From an uncultured bacterium (GTDB lineage Bacteria; Patescibacteria; Microgenomatia; Levybacterales; UBA12049): a DNA stretch of 7,390 nt. Numbering within the stretch: the stretch's first letter is position 1; the number at the start of each line of letters is the position of its first letter. The notes beneath the pieces were generated by a model. That model ran no database searches. It saw only the letters and a list, made by a program, of their open reading frames with translations, and was not told the DNA's origin. This document shows positions 2,579 to 5,647 of the stretch, piece after piece. The position numbers were made by a program, and so were the translations under genes. The stretch covers positions 1 to 7,390 of the forward strand of contig CAMPGJ010000053.1 in the NCBI GenBank assembly GCA_946885425.1, written 5' to 3'.

Positions 2579-2962
2579 ATGTTATCAAATGCACCAGTTG
2601 CACCAACTATTCCAGTTACTGATTTAAAAAAAGCCAGAGATTTTTATGAGAAGACTCTTGGTCTTTCTGTTAAGCAGGAAGATGAAGGGGAAGGTCTGCT
2701 TATAGAAGCTGGACAAGGATCGATGCTCTATCTTTACAAGCGTCCTCCAGCACCATCCCAACATACACTTGCTAGTTTCCATGTTAAAGATCTTGATGCT
2801 GAAATGGACGATCTAATTGCTAAAGGTGTGGTCTTTGAACAATATGATATGCCGGGGCTCAAAACTGATGAAAAAGGAATCGCTATGATGGGAGACATGA
2901 GAGGATGCTGGTTCAAAGACCCCGATGGAAATATCCTCGCTCTCGACGAAGAATCAAAGTAG
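2579..2962 (+). CDS. Small VOC (glyoxalase / bleomycin-resistance fold) protein
   Basis: 127 residues, the usual length of a single-chain vicinal oxygen chelate protein with two beta-alpha-beta-beta-beta modules. Module 1 begins with APTIPVTDLKKARDFYEKTLGL (split across 8-29); module 2 with LASFHVKDLDAEMDDLIAKG (64-83). It ends with the hallmark WFKDPDGNILAL (111-122). VOC proteins act on or bind small electrophiles, sugars or antibiotics, and the substrate cannot be read from the sequence. The metal ligands of true glyoxalase I are not evident: the final Glu position near GNILAL is Ala/Leu, and no His sits at the first-strand position. A binding or non-classical role is therefore as likely as glyoxalase activity. 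Soluble and cytoplasmic. It appears monocistronic, with its own leaderless promoter and a two-hairpin repeat starting 10 bp after the stop. Confidence 0.85.
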   Translation: MLSNAPVAPTIPVTDLKKARDFYEKTLGLSVKQEDEGEGLLIEAGQGSMLYLYKRPPAPSQHTLASFHVKDLDAEMDDLIAKGVVFEQYDMPGLKTDEKGIAMMGDMRGCWFKDPDGNILALDEESK

Positions 2963-2972
2963 TCCCTCAATT

Positions 2973-3074
2973 TCATGCTGATTTACTTGCAAAGCATGTT
3001 CTCGCACTGGACGAAGTGAATGTGTTTCAGCATCCAATAAGGAATATTAGATCCTGAAACGAGTTCAGGATGAC
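2973..3074 (+). repeat. Composite two-hairpin repeat, copy 1 (with a 35-nt insert)
   Basis: First hairpin: ATGCTGA (2975-2981) pairs with TCAGCAT (3027-3033). Second hairpin: ATCCTGAA (3051-3058), loop ACGAG, TTCAGGAT (3064-3071). The same order of blocks occurs on the minus strand of 5021-5100. Shared blocks are TCATGCTGA (2973-2981), ACTTG (2985-2989), TTTCAGCAT (3025-3033), a linker of 20 bases (3039-3058) that differs only by one missing A, and TTCAGGATGAC (3064-3074). Compared with copy 2, this copy has TTT added at 2982-2984 and 35 nt at 2990-3024, which enlarge the first hairpin. It lies between the VOC gene and trpS. It looks like a dispersed intergenic element of REP/MITE type; how many more copies the genome holds cannot be seen here. 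Confidence 0.8.
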
Positions 3075-3079
3075 TTTTT
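3051..3079 (+). terminator. Intrinsic terminator after the VOC gene (second hairpin of repeat copy 1)
   Basis: A perfect 8-bp stem ATCCTGAA / TTCAGGAT with the 5-nt loop ACGAG is followed, 3 nt later, by five T residues (3075-3079). The stem is only moderately GC-rich, so termination may be partial. It would separate the VOC transcript from trpS, whose -10 box begins about 25 bp downstream. Confidence 0.6.
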
Positions 3080-3099
3080 AAGCTTGAAATAACTGAATC

Positions 3100-3108
3100 T
3101 GCTATAAT
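3100..3108 (+). promoter_or_regulatory. Extended -10 promoter of trpS, giving a leaderless start
   Basis: TGC-TATAAT is a perfect extended -10 element, and exactly 6 nt separate it from the ATG at 3115, the same arrangement as for the VOC gene. The predicted first transcribed base is the A of the start codon. A TTGAAA lies at 3084-3089 but only 13 bp away, too close to be an ordinary -35. No attenuator or T-box leader can exist in this geometry, so trpS is not regulated by an RNA leader here. Confidence 0.65.
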
Positions 3109-3114
3109 GTAAAC

Positions 3115-4101
3115 ATGAAGAAACGGGTTTTATCAGGTATTCGCGCTACTGGCGGTTTGCATTTGGGAAATTATCTTGGTGCTATCAAGGGAATGTTTGC
3201 ATTGCAGGAAGATGTCGCCTATGAAAATCTTTACATGGTTGCCGATCTGCATACGTTAACTACACCTTATAAGGTGGAAGAATTACGCAAGCACAGACGG
3301 GAAATCGTTCTAGATTATCTCGCTGCGGGACTTGATCCCAAAAAAAGCATTCTCTTCCAGCAATCGAGTAATGTATATCACGCTGAACTGGCTTTCTATT
3401 TCTCGAGCGTGATGACAATTGCGCGTATGCAGCATTTGCCTACTTTTAAAGACAAAGTAAAACAGCATCCTGAAAGTGCCACTATGGCGCTTCTTAATTA
3501 CCCGATTTTAATGGCTTCGGATATCCTTATTTATAAAGCAAATTTCGTTCCGGTAGGTCTTGATCAGGAGCCGCATATTGAGGTAGCCCGTGAGATTGCA
3601 CGTAAAATGAACCAGGAGTATGGAATGGATTTTCCTGAACCGCAGCGGTTTAAAACAGAAGGCGAATATGTTCCATCACTGACAGGTGAAGGCAAGATGA
3701 GTAAATCTGTTGACGGAAGTTATATTAATCTTACAGATGATTTGGATGCTATCAAAACAAAGTTGGCGAAGGTACCAACAGACAGTGGTACACTTGGAGG
3801 CAATATCCCACAACAAGGTGGTGTCGCCAATCTTTTTACGCTTCTCAAACTATTTGAAGACAAGGAAGTTTTTGTTAAGTTTGTAATTGACTATAGAGAA
3901 GGAAAGATTCGCTATTCCGAACTAAAACAAGTATTAGCAGATGCTATTTACAAAGAACTTCAACCGTTTCAGAAAAAAAGGAAATATTTTGAAGAACATC
4001 CAGAAGAGGTTGATCAAATTATAAAAGAAGGTAATGAAAAGGCAACTGAATTAGCTGCAAAAACACTACAGGAAGTAAAGCAAAAAATGGGCTTACTTTA
4101 A
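3115..4101 (+). CDS. trpS: Tryptophan--tRNA ligase
   Basis: 328 residues, the normal length for bacterial TrpS. Cytoplasmic class Ic aminoacyl-tRNA synthetase that activates tryptophan with ATP and loads it on tRNA-Trp; active as a dimer in this family. The ATP-binding HIGH equivalent is GLHLGNY (14-20), the specificity loop includes VPVGLDQEPH (145-154), and the second ATP motif is GKMSKS (193-198). Further family landmarks are MVADLHTLT (41-49) and YPILMASDILIYKA (129-142). The Rossmann core is followed by a helical anticodon-binding C-terminus ending in a charged coil (about 285-328). The start is fixed by the family's short N-terminus before the first strand (KRVLSGIRATGG) and by the extended -10 box 6 nt upstream. 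mutY follows 39 bp after the stop with a possible promoter of its own, so the two may be partly co-transcribed. Confidence 0.97.
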   Translation: MKKRVLSGIRATGGLHLGNYLGAIKGMFALQEDVAYENLYMVADLHTLTTPYKVEELRKHRREIVLDYLAAGLDPKKSILFQQSSNVYHAELAFYFSSVMTIARMQHLPTFKDKVKQHPESATMALLNYPILMASDILIYKANFVPVGLDQEPHIEVAREIARKMNQEYGMDFPEPQRFKTEGEYVPSLTGEGKMSKSVDGSYINLTDDLDAIKTKLAKVPTDSGTLGGNIPQQGGVANLFTLLKLFEDKEVFVKFVIDYREGKIRYSELKQVLADAIYKELQPFQKKRKYFEEHPEEVDQIIKEGNEKATELAAKTLQEVKQKMGLL

Positions 4102-4114
4102 TTAGAGATCAGTG

Positions 4115-4120
4115 TATAAT
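4115..4120 (+). promoter_or_regulatory. Possible -10 box upstream of mutY
   Basis: A perfect TATAAT lies in the trpS-mutY gap, 14 bp after the trpS stop. No good -35 is visible (TTACTT 16 bp upstream is poor). If used, transcription would begin near 4126-4127 and give a leader of about 14 nt before the ATG at 4141. It would also rule out the in-frame TTG at 4120, which overlaps the box. Confidence 0.4.
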
Positions 4121-4140
4121 TGAATCCTCTGACTAGAATA

Positions 4141-5031
4141 ATGGATTTATCTCCTCAGGAAATAAAACAATTTCAAACAAGAATTTTTGATTGGTATAAA
4201 GTTAATAAGAGAGATTTGCCATGGAGGCAGATACCATTTGATACTACCTTACATCAGCGAGACCCGTATGAAATTCTTCTTTCCGAAGTAATGGCGCAGC
4301 AGACGCAGATTTCCAGAGTTATTCTCAAATATGAATCTTGGTTGGAGGCATTTCCTACTATCCAAGATCTTGCGAAAGCTTCAGTGTCGAACATATTAGT
4401 ATATTGGACAGGGTTGGGGTATAACAGGCGTGCCTTGAATTTAAAGAAAACGGCAGAGATTATTGTGAATCAGTATGATGGTAAATTTCCCCGAGAAGAA
4501 TCTGAGCTTTTAAAACTTCCAGGTATTGGGCAATACACTGCGAGGGCTCTTCTTTGTTTTGGATTTAATGAGCAGATAGCGGTTGTGGATACCAACATAC
4601 GAAAGGTTATTCTGACTCAGTTTATTAATAGTCATCCTGGAGAGGCAAAGACCTCGATAGGATCTCATTCAAAAATAGATTCTATCGCTTCGCTCCAGAA
4701 TGACATAAATGAGATTCAAAAAATAGCTGATCAATTGTTACCTCAAGGGAGAGCATACGAGTGGAATCAGGCACTGATGGATTATGCTAATGCAGTTTTA
4801 AAAAAAGAAAAAATCGATATCCCTAAACAATCAAAGTTTAAGGGATCACATCGCTACTATCGAGGACAAGTTTTGAAAAAATTGATCGAAAAGAAAAAAA
4901 TTTCACTTCCCGAACTTGGAGGATTGATTAAAAAAGACTACGATGAGGTTTGGTTACAAAGCTTAGTTTCAGAATTGCGGGATGAAGGGTTTGTGGAGCT
5001 TGATGGGAAAGTAGTCAAATTGTCATCCTGA
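4141..5031 (+). CDS. mutY: A/G-specific adenine glycosylase, cluster-less MutY variant
   Basis: 296 residues from the ATG. MutY removes adenine mispaired with 8-oxoguanine. Seen (ATG = 1): the N-terminal helix ending in KRDLPWR (23-29), SEVMAQQTQ (48-56) with catalytic Glu49, the helix-hairpin-helix LPGIGQYTA (126-134), VDTN (149-152) with catalytic Asp150, and WNQALMDYA (208-216). Where classical MutY then has four cysteines holding a [4Fe-4S] cluster, this protein has none; its only cysteine is Cys139. The MutT-like C-terminal domain that reads 8-oxoG in E. coli MutY (350 residues) is also missing. Residues about 236-296 look instead like a winged helix (RGQVLKKLIEKKKIS, then an ELRDEGFVEL wing). 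A stretch of about 15 residues is inserted around 165-190. An in-frame TTG at 4120 would add 7 residues, but ATG 4141 fits the family start and the upstream -10 better. The last two codons and the TGA lie inside repeat copy 2. Confidence 0.9.
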   Translation: MDLSPQEIKQFQTRIFDWYKVNKRDLPWRQIPFDTTLHQRDPYEILLSEVMAQQTQISRVILKYESWLEAFPTIQDLAKASVSNILVYWTGLGYNRRALNLKKTAEIIVNQYDGKFPREESELLKLPGIGQYTARALLCFGFNEQIAVVDTNIRKVILTQFINSHPGEAKTSIGSHSKIDSIASLQNDINEIQKIADQLLPQGRAYEWNQALMDYANAVLKKEKIDIPKQSKFKGSHRYYRGQVLKKLIEKKKISLPELGGLIKKDYDEVWLQSLVSELRDEGFVELDGKVVKLSS

Positions 5032-5045
5032 ATTTAGTTCAGGAT
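5025..5045 (+). terminator. Hairpin at the end of mutY, probable terminator
   Basis: Perfect 8-bp arms ATCCTGAA (5025-5032) and TTCAGGAT (5038-5045) with the loop TTTAG. The mutY TGA lies within the left arm. The downstream bases CTAATATTTCCTTTT are U-rich in RNA but interrupted, so this is a weaker terminator than the one after the VOC gene. Ribosomes reaching the stop would melt the stem, so its effect may be on 3'-end stability instead. Confidence 0.45.
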
Positions 5046-5075
5046 CTAATATTTCCTTTTAAATTGTAGCATGAA

Positions 5076-5096
5076 ATGCTGAAACAAGTTCAGCAT
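5076..5096 (-). terminator. Hairpin after msrA, probable terminator
   Basis: On the minus strand, 5 nt after the msrA TAA, ATGCTGAA and TTCAGCAT form a perfect 8-bp stem with a 5-nt loop, followed by only a short T run (TTTC). A position directly behind the stop codon suits a terminator or 3'-end protector; the weak T tract lowers certainty. Confidence 0.45.
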
Positions 5097-5101
5097 GACA
5101 G

Positions 5102-5647
5102 TTAACCTTCTTTATACTCGTCTTTAACATTTTCTCTAAAATGCTCCATTAACTTCCTCACTTTGGGATCGATAACAAACATGCAGTAGGGGGCCGAGGG
5201 ATTGCTATCATAGTAATCTTTGTGATGTTCTTCAGCAGGATAAAAATTGGTGAACGGTACGATTTGGGTTACGATGGGGTCATGAAATTTGCCACTTTTA
5301 TCCAGCTCTTCTTTTTTCTGCAAAGCAGTTTCCTTTTGTTTATCGTCATGAAAAAAAACGGCGGATCTGTATTGCGTTCCCACATCATCTCCTTGTCTGT
5401 TTGGTGTCGTGGGATCATGCGTACCAAAGAAAACATCCAGCATTGTTTTATATGAAATTATTGATGGGTCAAAGGTAATTTGAAGACATTCCGCGTGTCC
5501 TGTCATCCCGGATGATACATCTTCATATGTGGGATTTTCTACGTCGCCTCCAGTATAGCCTGATTGCACCGAGTCCACACCTTTTAGTCTTTTAAAAATC
5601 GCCTCAGTGCACCAAAAACATCCATTAGCAAATGTCGCCTTCTCCAT
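5102..5647 (-). CDS. msrA: Peptide-methionine (S)-S-oxide reductase
   Basis: 181 residues, a complete single-domain MsrA that reduces methionine S-sulfoxide in proteins and free methionine. The active-site motif GCFWC (9-13) carries the nucleophile Cys10, and Cys13 is a possible recycling partner. SGYTGG (29-34), HAE (51-53) with the catalytic Glu, GTQYRS (90-95) and YPAEEHHKDYY (136-146) are all in place. Cys155 in APYCMFVI could serve as another resolving cysteine, with reduction by thioredoxin, but no MsrB domain is fused. No signal peptide, so cytoplasmic. The ATG at 5647 gives the usual short lead-in to the motif. It follows mscS by 27 bp on the same strand and may have its own -10 box in that gap. 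With mutY opposite, two oxidative-damage repair genes end facing each other. Confidence 0.96.
   Translation of the reverse strand: MEKATFANGCFWCTEAIFKRLKGVDSVQSGYTGGDVENPTYEDVSSGMTGHAECLQITFDPSIISYKTMLDVFFGTHDPTTPNRQGDDVGTQYRSAVFFHDDKQKETALQKKEELDKSGKFHDPIVTQIVPFTNFYPAEEHHKDYYDSNPSAPYCMFVIDPKVRKLMEHFRENVKDEYKEG

Follow-up and report, generated by a model that had tools for sequence, protein, structure and literature searches.

The closest described relatives of the repeats treated here are the CGTC-tagged repetitive extragenic palindromic (REP) sequences, which carry a CGTC or TGTC tag, 8-9 bp stems starting with AT, and loops of 4-5 nt, and which occur mostly as head-to-head (HH) dimers, often heterodimers (Di Nocera, De Gregorio and Rocco 2013, PMC3733652). 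The accessible sections of that paper place them in Proteobacteria, Chlorobi, Bacteroidetes, Spirochaetes, and Thermotogae, name S. meliloti, A. lipoferum, N. aromaticivorans, and Neisseriae among their hosts, and state that they "apparently lack a dedicated transposase" (PMC3733652). In this report, we describe two pairs of hairpins, copy A and copy B, in a 7,390-nt stretch of DNA from an uncultured bacterium of the Patescibacteria (GCA_946885425.1, contig CAMPGJ010000053.1; the whole stretch is called the window), together with a small GIY-YIG nuclease gene that lies between such hairpins in related genomes.

Judged by their sequence, the hairpin pairs of the window are CGTC-type REP dimers. 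They share with that class the TGTC/CGTC tag, an 8-bp stem starting with AT, a 5-nt loop, the outward-facing (HH) arrangement, and the formation of heterodimers. They differ in two respects: Patescibacteria stand outside the five-phylum list in the accessible sections of the 2013 paper, and an enzyme gene accompanies the repeats here, whereas those sections report no association with a transposase gene. The word Patescibacteria is also absent from what was accessible of the main text of RepRanger (PMC12306157) and of Quentin 2018 (PMC6006769). Two other classes offer parallels. REPtrons, which combine GTAG REPs with a REP-associated tyrosine transposase (RAYT, TnpA-REP), likewise have few enzyme genes per genome against many short palindrome dimers, REPs on either side of the enzyme gene, and a REP type that matches the enzyme; unlike them, the window has a (T)GTC rather than a GTAG/GTRG tag, and a GIY-YIG domain replaces the HUH tyrosine enzyme. 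Miniature inverted-repeat transposable elements (MITEs) are similarly short and share their inverted ends with a coding relative, and one internally deleted copy is found here as well; the ends described here differ in being palindromic themselves, and no target duplication was seen. A likeness to MITEs, proposed in a preliminary description of this locus, holds insofar as an enzyme-coding version exists.

We consider it probable (roughly 0.7) that the window features are non-autonomous HH CGTC REP dimers whose full-length relative is a nuclease-coding element, moved by its nuclease. We observe the dimers, a gene lying between REPs, agreement of enzyme clade with REP type, a single recent duplication of a complete unit, close relatives that lack the element, and one internally deleted copy; from these, we infer that the nuclease moves the REPs.

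REP dimers in the window and in related genomes

Copies A and B (Table 1) each consist of two hairpins with tags facing outward, and in each copy the paired units are unlike at the first stem base past the tag (C vs G). The order of the units in A is inverted relative to B, giving an inverted repeat (I1) of 44 nt at 80%, as expected from the preliminary description, which had read the same hairpin blocks in opposite orientation in the two gaps. Three of the four window units contain the stem-loop ATCCTGAA-N5-TTCAGGAT or ATGCTGAA-N5-TTCAGCAT, the exception being the outer unit of copy A, which also ends in CCA where the remaining units end in CTA or TTC. Tags read TGTC in both units of copy B and are degenerate in copy A (AGTC and TTTC), the outer unit having TTTCAT where TGTCAT is expected. 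Copy A is more decayed than copy B, its outer unit being long-looped and altered in its tag. The shared linker had served as an argument for a single composite element; it is indeed better than chance, but with lengths of 15 nt (A) and 28 nt (B) and 424/20000 shuffles scoring equally high, it lies only moderately above chance and is a weaker argument than claimed.

Long-looped and mixed units occur elsewhere. In G001, the genome with the best trpS relative, loci L031, L039, L040, and L041 hold REP units whose loop is long and structured (GTCATCCCGAACTGCGCCGCTTCGGCGAAGCTAGTACCCTCTGGGGTATTTCGGGATC and near variants) and unlike in sequence that of the copy A outer unit. Locus L062 holds, near position 1525, a mixed unit with a GCT-type outer half, a CCT-type inner half, and a long loop between them, facing a GCT unit.

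The further copies anticipated by the preliminary description were found in relatives. Using GTCATSCTGAA-N1..6-TTCAGSATC as the exact-unit pattern and its reversed form as the control, we counted 12 exact units in G001 and none in the 23 other genomes with a trpS relative. Across the family of G001, exact units are present in 29/73 genomes, with a maximum of 101 in one genome, and the reversed pattern is absent (0), a repetition far above chance. One composite, dispersed element of the REP or bacterial interspersed mosaic element (BIME) kind is supported. Pairs were analyzed in five genomes with a wider pattern, covering 250 of 288 units. All 79 close pairs (<=150 nt) are HH, with linkers of 2-43 nt, and for the REP type of the window the two units of a pair never agree in the stem base that follows GTCAT (0/79; expected 30.7; minimum of 18 in 5000 within-genome shuffles). 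Gene-bearing pairs of the same type, described below, are equal at that base in 5/11 cases (vs 0/79, Fisher p = 1e-5). Selection against short perfect palindromes would fit these counts, but as a general rule it is contradicted by the genome G268, where identical cores occur in 11 of 13 close pairs. Its short dimers (L334-L346) have unlike inner tails, one CC and one CTA, in 13/13 cases by eye, so the two ends can be told apart even where the cores are identical.

The preliminary description placed the repeat only at gene ends. This is true of the window, where copy B contains the mutY stop codon, and untrue of the relatives, where units also lie in divergent gaps and inside open reading frames (ORFs). 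With gap types taken from crude ORF calls, the 88 unit-bearing gaps comprise 61 unidirectional, 14 divergent, and 13 convergent ones, proportions that resemble those of all gaps at the same loci (192, 41, and 46, respectively), and 27/162 units in relatives lie inside an ORF of at least 90 aa. The median distance from unit to nearest stop codon is 14 nt (n = 74). At locus L312 (3407-4354), an ORF read as prepilin-peptidase-like carries SVIPAQAGIQS, an in-frame GTCATTCCCGCG-type REP and hence an intragenic one.

Two explanations that need no mobile element can be weighed at this point. If the hairpins were ordinary bidirectional terminators that had arisen independently at gene ends, their shape and their frequent position within 20 nt of a stop codon (45/74) would be accounted for, but the tag, stem code, and outward pairing common to 79/79 close pairs in five genomes would not, nor would the absence of exact units from the other 23 genomes with a trpS relative; we hold this explanation to be highly improbable, while termination as a side-effect of REP hairpins is possible. 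The preliminary description also suggested that the copies could serve to invert or mobilize trpS-mutY, which they do flank in inverted orientation. However, that gene pair was found at none of the 25 trpS-relative loci examined, mutY being recognizable near 0/25 (tblastn, within the retrieved flanks, some of them short), and dimers of this kind lie all over the genomes of relatives, so that such a role has the least claim to belief of all the readings considered.

A GIY-YIG nuclease gene between outward-facing REPs

Outward-facing pairs 275-330 nt apart enclose a GIY-YIG ORF of ~95 aa in four of five distinct cases. The ORF matches PF01541 above the cut-off, and the same domain is precomputed for all 120 homologues listed. 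Gene and repeat overlap: three of the four enclosed proteins terminate with DAETSSA, an in-frame translation of the REP whose stop codon falls in the tag. A REP-encoded tail is present in 57/120 protein-database matches listed when the query carries the tail; with a constructed tail-less query, 26/120 matches listed have such a tail with the stop inside the REP, and 20 more end in EMLK, the peptide that a TTTA-loop REP encodes. Residues Y7, Y18, R28, H32, E65, and N84 are invariant in alignments A1 and A2 and fit the active site of GIY-YIG enzymes; catalytic activity is predicted. The nuclease had no match in the phage collection and none among solved structures by sequence at E 0.01, and its single NCBIfam match, a group I intron endonuclease, is below the cut-off.

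To collect further genes, we used the tail-less profile A2 (8 rows, 4 from REP-flanked genes), with an 80-bit cut chosen after inspecting the matches. In the 73 family genomes, 30 genes in 20 genomes score at least 80 bits. The top ten have REPs on both sides in 10/10 cases (nine strictly, L215 having one mutated unit), and six of these ten lie outside the profile. For the next 20, automatic scoring finds both sides flanked in 4/20 under a strict rule and 6/20 under another, while GTCAT-type REPs are seen by eye on both sides in 16/20 (with altered tags at L225) and on a single side in the other 4. The automatic rules score few of them because other, often longer-looped REP types occur there, for example GTCATTGCGAG..GAAGCAATC, GTCATTCTGG..CCAGAATC, and GTCATTCCCGCG. 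In a fresh set of 379 genomes of the phylum, 104 have the nuclease clade at E 1e-20. Among the 29 new loci listed, automatic scoring finds REPs on both sides in 16, on one side in 6, and on none in 7, against 0 on both and 10 on one side in 161 shifted windows; by eye, both sides are flanked in 24/29, including L286 with a GTCAC tag. The by-eye counts were not blind and accepted altered tags (L225, L286), and at L311, counted among the 16, the automatic rule picked up a chance palindrome on the left, with a real palindrome adjoining. Half-REP direct repeats with a 21-nt period adjoin the nuclease element at L212 (1826-1910) and L208 (215-257).

The controls (72 rows, 69 distinct loci, three of them counted in two groups) show no such flanking. 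It was found at 0/10 weaker A2 matches, 0/30 of the best generic PF01541 matches, and 0/22 Y1 loci, and within REP-rich genomes 0/10 other GIY-YIG genes had outward REPs. The control gene L271 is bracketed by GTCAC-tagged palindromes that point the same way. Enzyme and repeat also co-occur: 19/20 family genomes with the enzyme are REP-positive vs 10/53 others (p = 2e-9), and at a looser E 1e-15 the figures are 20/28 vs 9/45 (p = 2e-5), kinship being ignored in both tests.

The enzyme that the preliminary description suggested looking for was a different one, a REP-associated Y1 HUH transposase. As a rival explanation, such a tyrosine enzyme would move the dimers in trans. Genes of the Y1_Tnp class are indeed present in 41/73 family genomes, and 20/41 of these genomes are REP-positive vs 9/32 others. 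However, this association is weak (p = 0.06), no window-type unit occurs at any of 30 Y1 loci, the 22 of them long enough for the flank control are never REP-flanked, four genomes with at least 10 units have no Y1 match, and the tag is not GTAG. The association with a transposase, looked for in the Y1_Tnp class, thus gave way to one with the GIY-YIG nuclease, and we regard movement by a Y1 enzyme as very improbable. An unrelated two-tagged palindrome, GTCATGCACC-GTCT-GGTGCATGAC, lies ~0.5 kb from the Y1 match at L078 (2305-2328).

Enzyme-REP matching and signs of movement

Enzyme and REP type go together. For 33/56 nuclease genes, the REP stem type is shared with the closest enzyme from a different genome, where 9.8 are expected and 5000 shuffles reach a maximum of 23, kinship again being ignored (56 of 59 genes; the three without a classifiable REP were excluded). 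A genome can hold several REP types, each with its own gene, as in G038, which has three. The G268 enzyme (L301) bears GTCATTCCCGCG ends, and G268 holds 60 units of that type against 0-10 in each of 14 other genomes.

Four sets of genomes give snapshots that bear on movement. In G268 (contig C21), two 410-bp blocks with one mismatch lie 4.4 kb apart between unrelated flanks; identity starts exactly at TGTCAT and stops five bases past ATGAC, and each end of both gene-bearing copies carries a CCAG tail. Azospirillum lipoferum has an element between sufB and sufC, and the same gap in A. oryzae, A. ramasamyi, B510, and TSH58 is without it, being too diverged for the joint to be read. In Sphingobium, the element is present in TomTYG46 and TomMM7A and absent from TomTYG72, while TomTYG74 and TomTYG64 have a single palindrome with both tags at its site. 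S. meliloti Ak57 has a 161-bp copy, with both REPs kept and 213 bp of the gene lost, beside a 375-bp copy. A nuclease element occupies the sufB-sufC gap in both Shinella PSBB067 (L251) and A. lipoferum (L248), two genera whose elements differ in REP type.

GIY-YIG homing enzymes exist, and the nuclease has their domain (PF01541). The REPs could accordingly be a landing site, with a homing-type selfish gene invading the linker of existing dimers that are spread by something else, and the great excess of gene-less short dimers over gene-bearing ones would suit this. Yet the copied block of G268 includes both REPs and has unrelated flanks, REP stem type tracks enzyme clade, and the REP encodes the C-terminus of some nuclease genes. 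In addition, the G268 gene copies are CCAG/CCAG-tailed, whereas the dimers are CC/CTA in 13/13 cases, so the gene-bearing copies are not simply a short dimer plus a gene. We judge the landing-site explanation unlikely.

Elements outside Patescibacteria

The nuclease is present in 33 records of a plasmid collection, some of them chromosome-sized, and 16 were read, picked for taxon spread before their flanks were viewed. A simple outward CGTC REP pair frames the gene at 9/16 loci, all from Proteobacteria: two Shinella, S. meliloti, Rhizobium CIAT894, Neorhizobium, A. lipoferum, Aeromonas caviae, Sphingobium, and Novosphingobium aromaticivorans. On a Planktothrix plasmid (L238), the nuclease gene has an MmeI-type restriction gene on one side and DISARM drmA on the other.

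Proposed mechanism and points against it

A full-length element of ~300-450 bp would consist of a REP unit, one GIY-YIG nuclease gene of ~90-100 aa, and an inverse REP unit. The nuclease would recognize the tag and hairpin of its own REP type and would likely cut at the tag, as suggested by the left boundary of the duplicated G268 block, which falls precisely on the tag. A new site, often just behind a gene, would then receive a copy of the entire unit or of a short dimer that has lost the gene, on which the nuclease may act too. Strand transfer and everything past cutting are conjectural; because a hydrolytic nuclease joins no ends, repair or replication would need to complete the transfer.

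Several observations weigh against movement by the nuclease:

(i) The REP-gene arrangement has exceptions. One outward pair in G038 (C3), 308 nt apart, has no GIY-YIG gene inside, and 4/20 family genes and 5/29 fresh-set genes are at best one-sided by eye.

(ii) Enzyme and repeat do not always occur together, as 10/29 REP-positive family genomes, which are draft assemblies, lack an A2 gene of at least 80 bits, three of them (G031, G066, and G092) with 11-13 units.

(iii) In the plasmid collection, 4/16 loci have CGTC-like REPs arranged otherwise (Planktothrix, N. gonorrhoeae, Sinorhizobium K101, and Spirosoma), and 3/16 have no REP, namely Photobacterium and two Rhizobium that share one gene neighborhood.

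(iv) The signs of movement have limits of their own. The G268 contig comes from a draft assembly, and no target-site duplication was seen around its copies, by eye only. The flank of the deleted Ak57 copy is repeated too, so this copy stems from a tandem duplication and alone is no proof of movement.

The window and its genes

The contig is Levyibacteriota-like (Patescibacteria), with the window TrpS nearest to that of a Levyibacteriota genome (71%, the closest among the matches listed). Window ORFs 135-947 and 1946-2482 have no Pfam match at E 0.001, and Rfam gave no match at the gathering score.

Table 1. Coordinates of the REP units and neighboring genes in the window
Feature	Position	Strand	Remarks
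Glyoxalase-fold gene	2579..2962	+	left of copy A; PF00903
Copy A	2972..3074		two hairpins
Copy A outer REP unit	2972..3034	+	GCT type, 45-nt loop, degenerate tag, tail CCA; 7-bp stem, arms ATGCTGA 2975-2981 / TCAGCAT 3027-3033
Copy A linker	3035..3049		15 nt
Copy A REP unit	3050..3074	-	CCT type, loop CTCG, tag GTCAT; GTCATCCTGAACTCGTTTCAGGATC; A precedes tag
trpS	3115..4101	+	PF00579
mutY-like glycosylase	4120..5031	+	HhH-GPD (scan began at ATG 4141)
Copy B	5022..5099		two hairpins
Copy B REP unit	5022..5046	+	CCT type, loop TTTA, tag GTCAT; GTCATCCTGAATTTAGTTCAGGATC; holds mutY stop codon
mutY stop codon	5029..5031	+	provided by REP of copy B; ORF 4120-5031 terminates there
Copy B linker	5047..5074		28 nt
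Copy B REP unit	5075..5099	-	GCT type, loop CTTG, tag GTCAT; GTCATGCTGAACTTGTTTCAGCATT
msrA	5102..5647	-	PF01625; convergent to mutY, copy B between

Implications

Among the matches listed in our literature search, whose scope did not extend to bioRxiv or most subscription journals, no title or abstract links a GIY-YIG nuclease with REPs, and "GIY-YIG" and "repetitive extragenic palindromic" came together in no paper of the searched literature; the accessible part of PMC9465073 has both terms, in separate table rows. Small UvrC-like genes of COG2827 in Caulobacter were treated in 2007 under nucleotide excision repair, their role being left open in the part of the paper accessible to us (PMC1839093). 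As described there, they resemble the present genes in being small, stand-alone, and of the GIY-YIG domain, a likeness by description that does not establish the same clade.

Extending the reading beyond this family, we lean, with somewhat less assurance, toward small GIY-YIG nucleases serving the entire CGTC REP superfamily, throughout bacteria, as its dedicated mobilizing enzymes. Such elements of ~400 bp would be among the smallest self-coding ones, would use a hydrolytic nuclease rather than a transposase, and would comprise enzyme clades co-evolving with REP stem types, with REP dimers as their non-autonomous offspring. Whether CGTC REPs have a dedicated enzyme, a gap remarked in 2013, becomes directly testable through the REP-framed nuclease gene, with matching REP type, in Patescibacteria, alphaproteobacteria, and Aeromonas. 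If the reading is true, small nuclease genes discussed as repair genes would be re-read as mobile elements, and a very small self-coding mobile unit would exist in genome-reduced bacteria.

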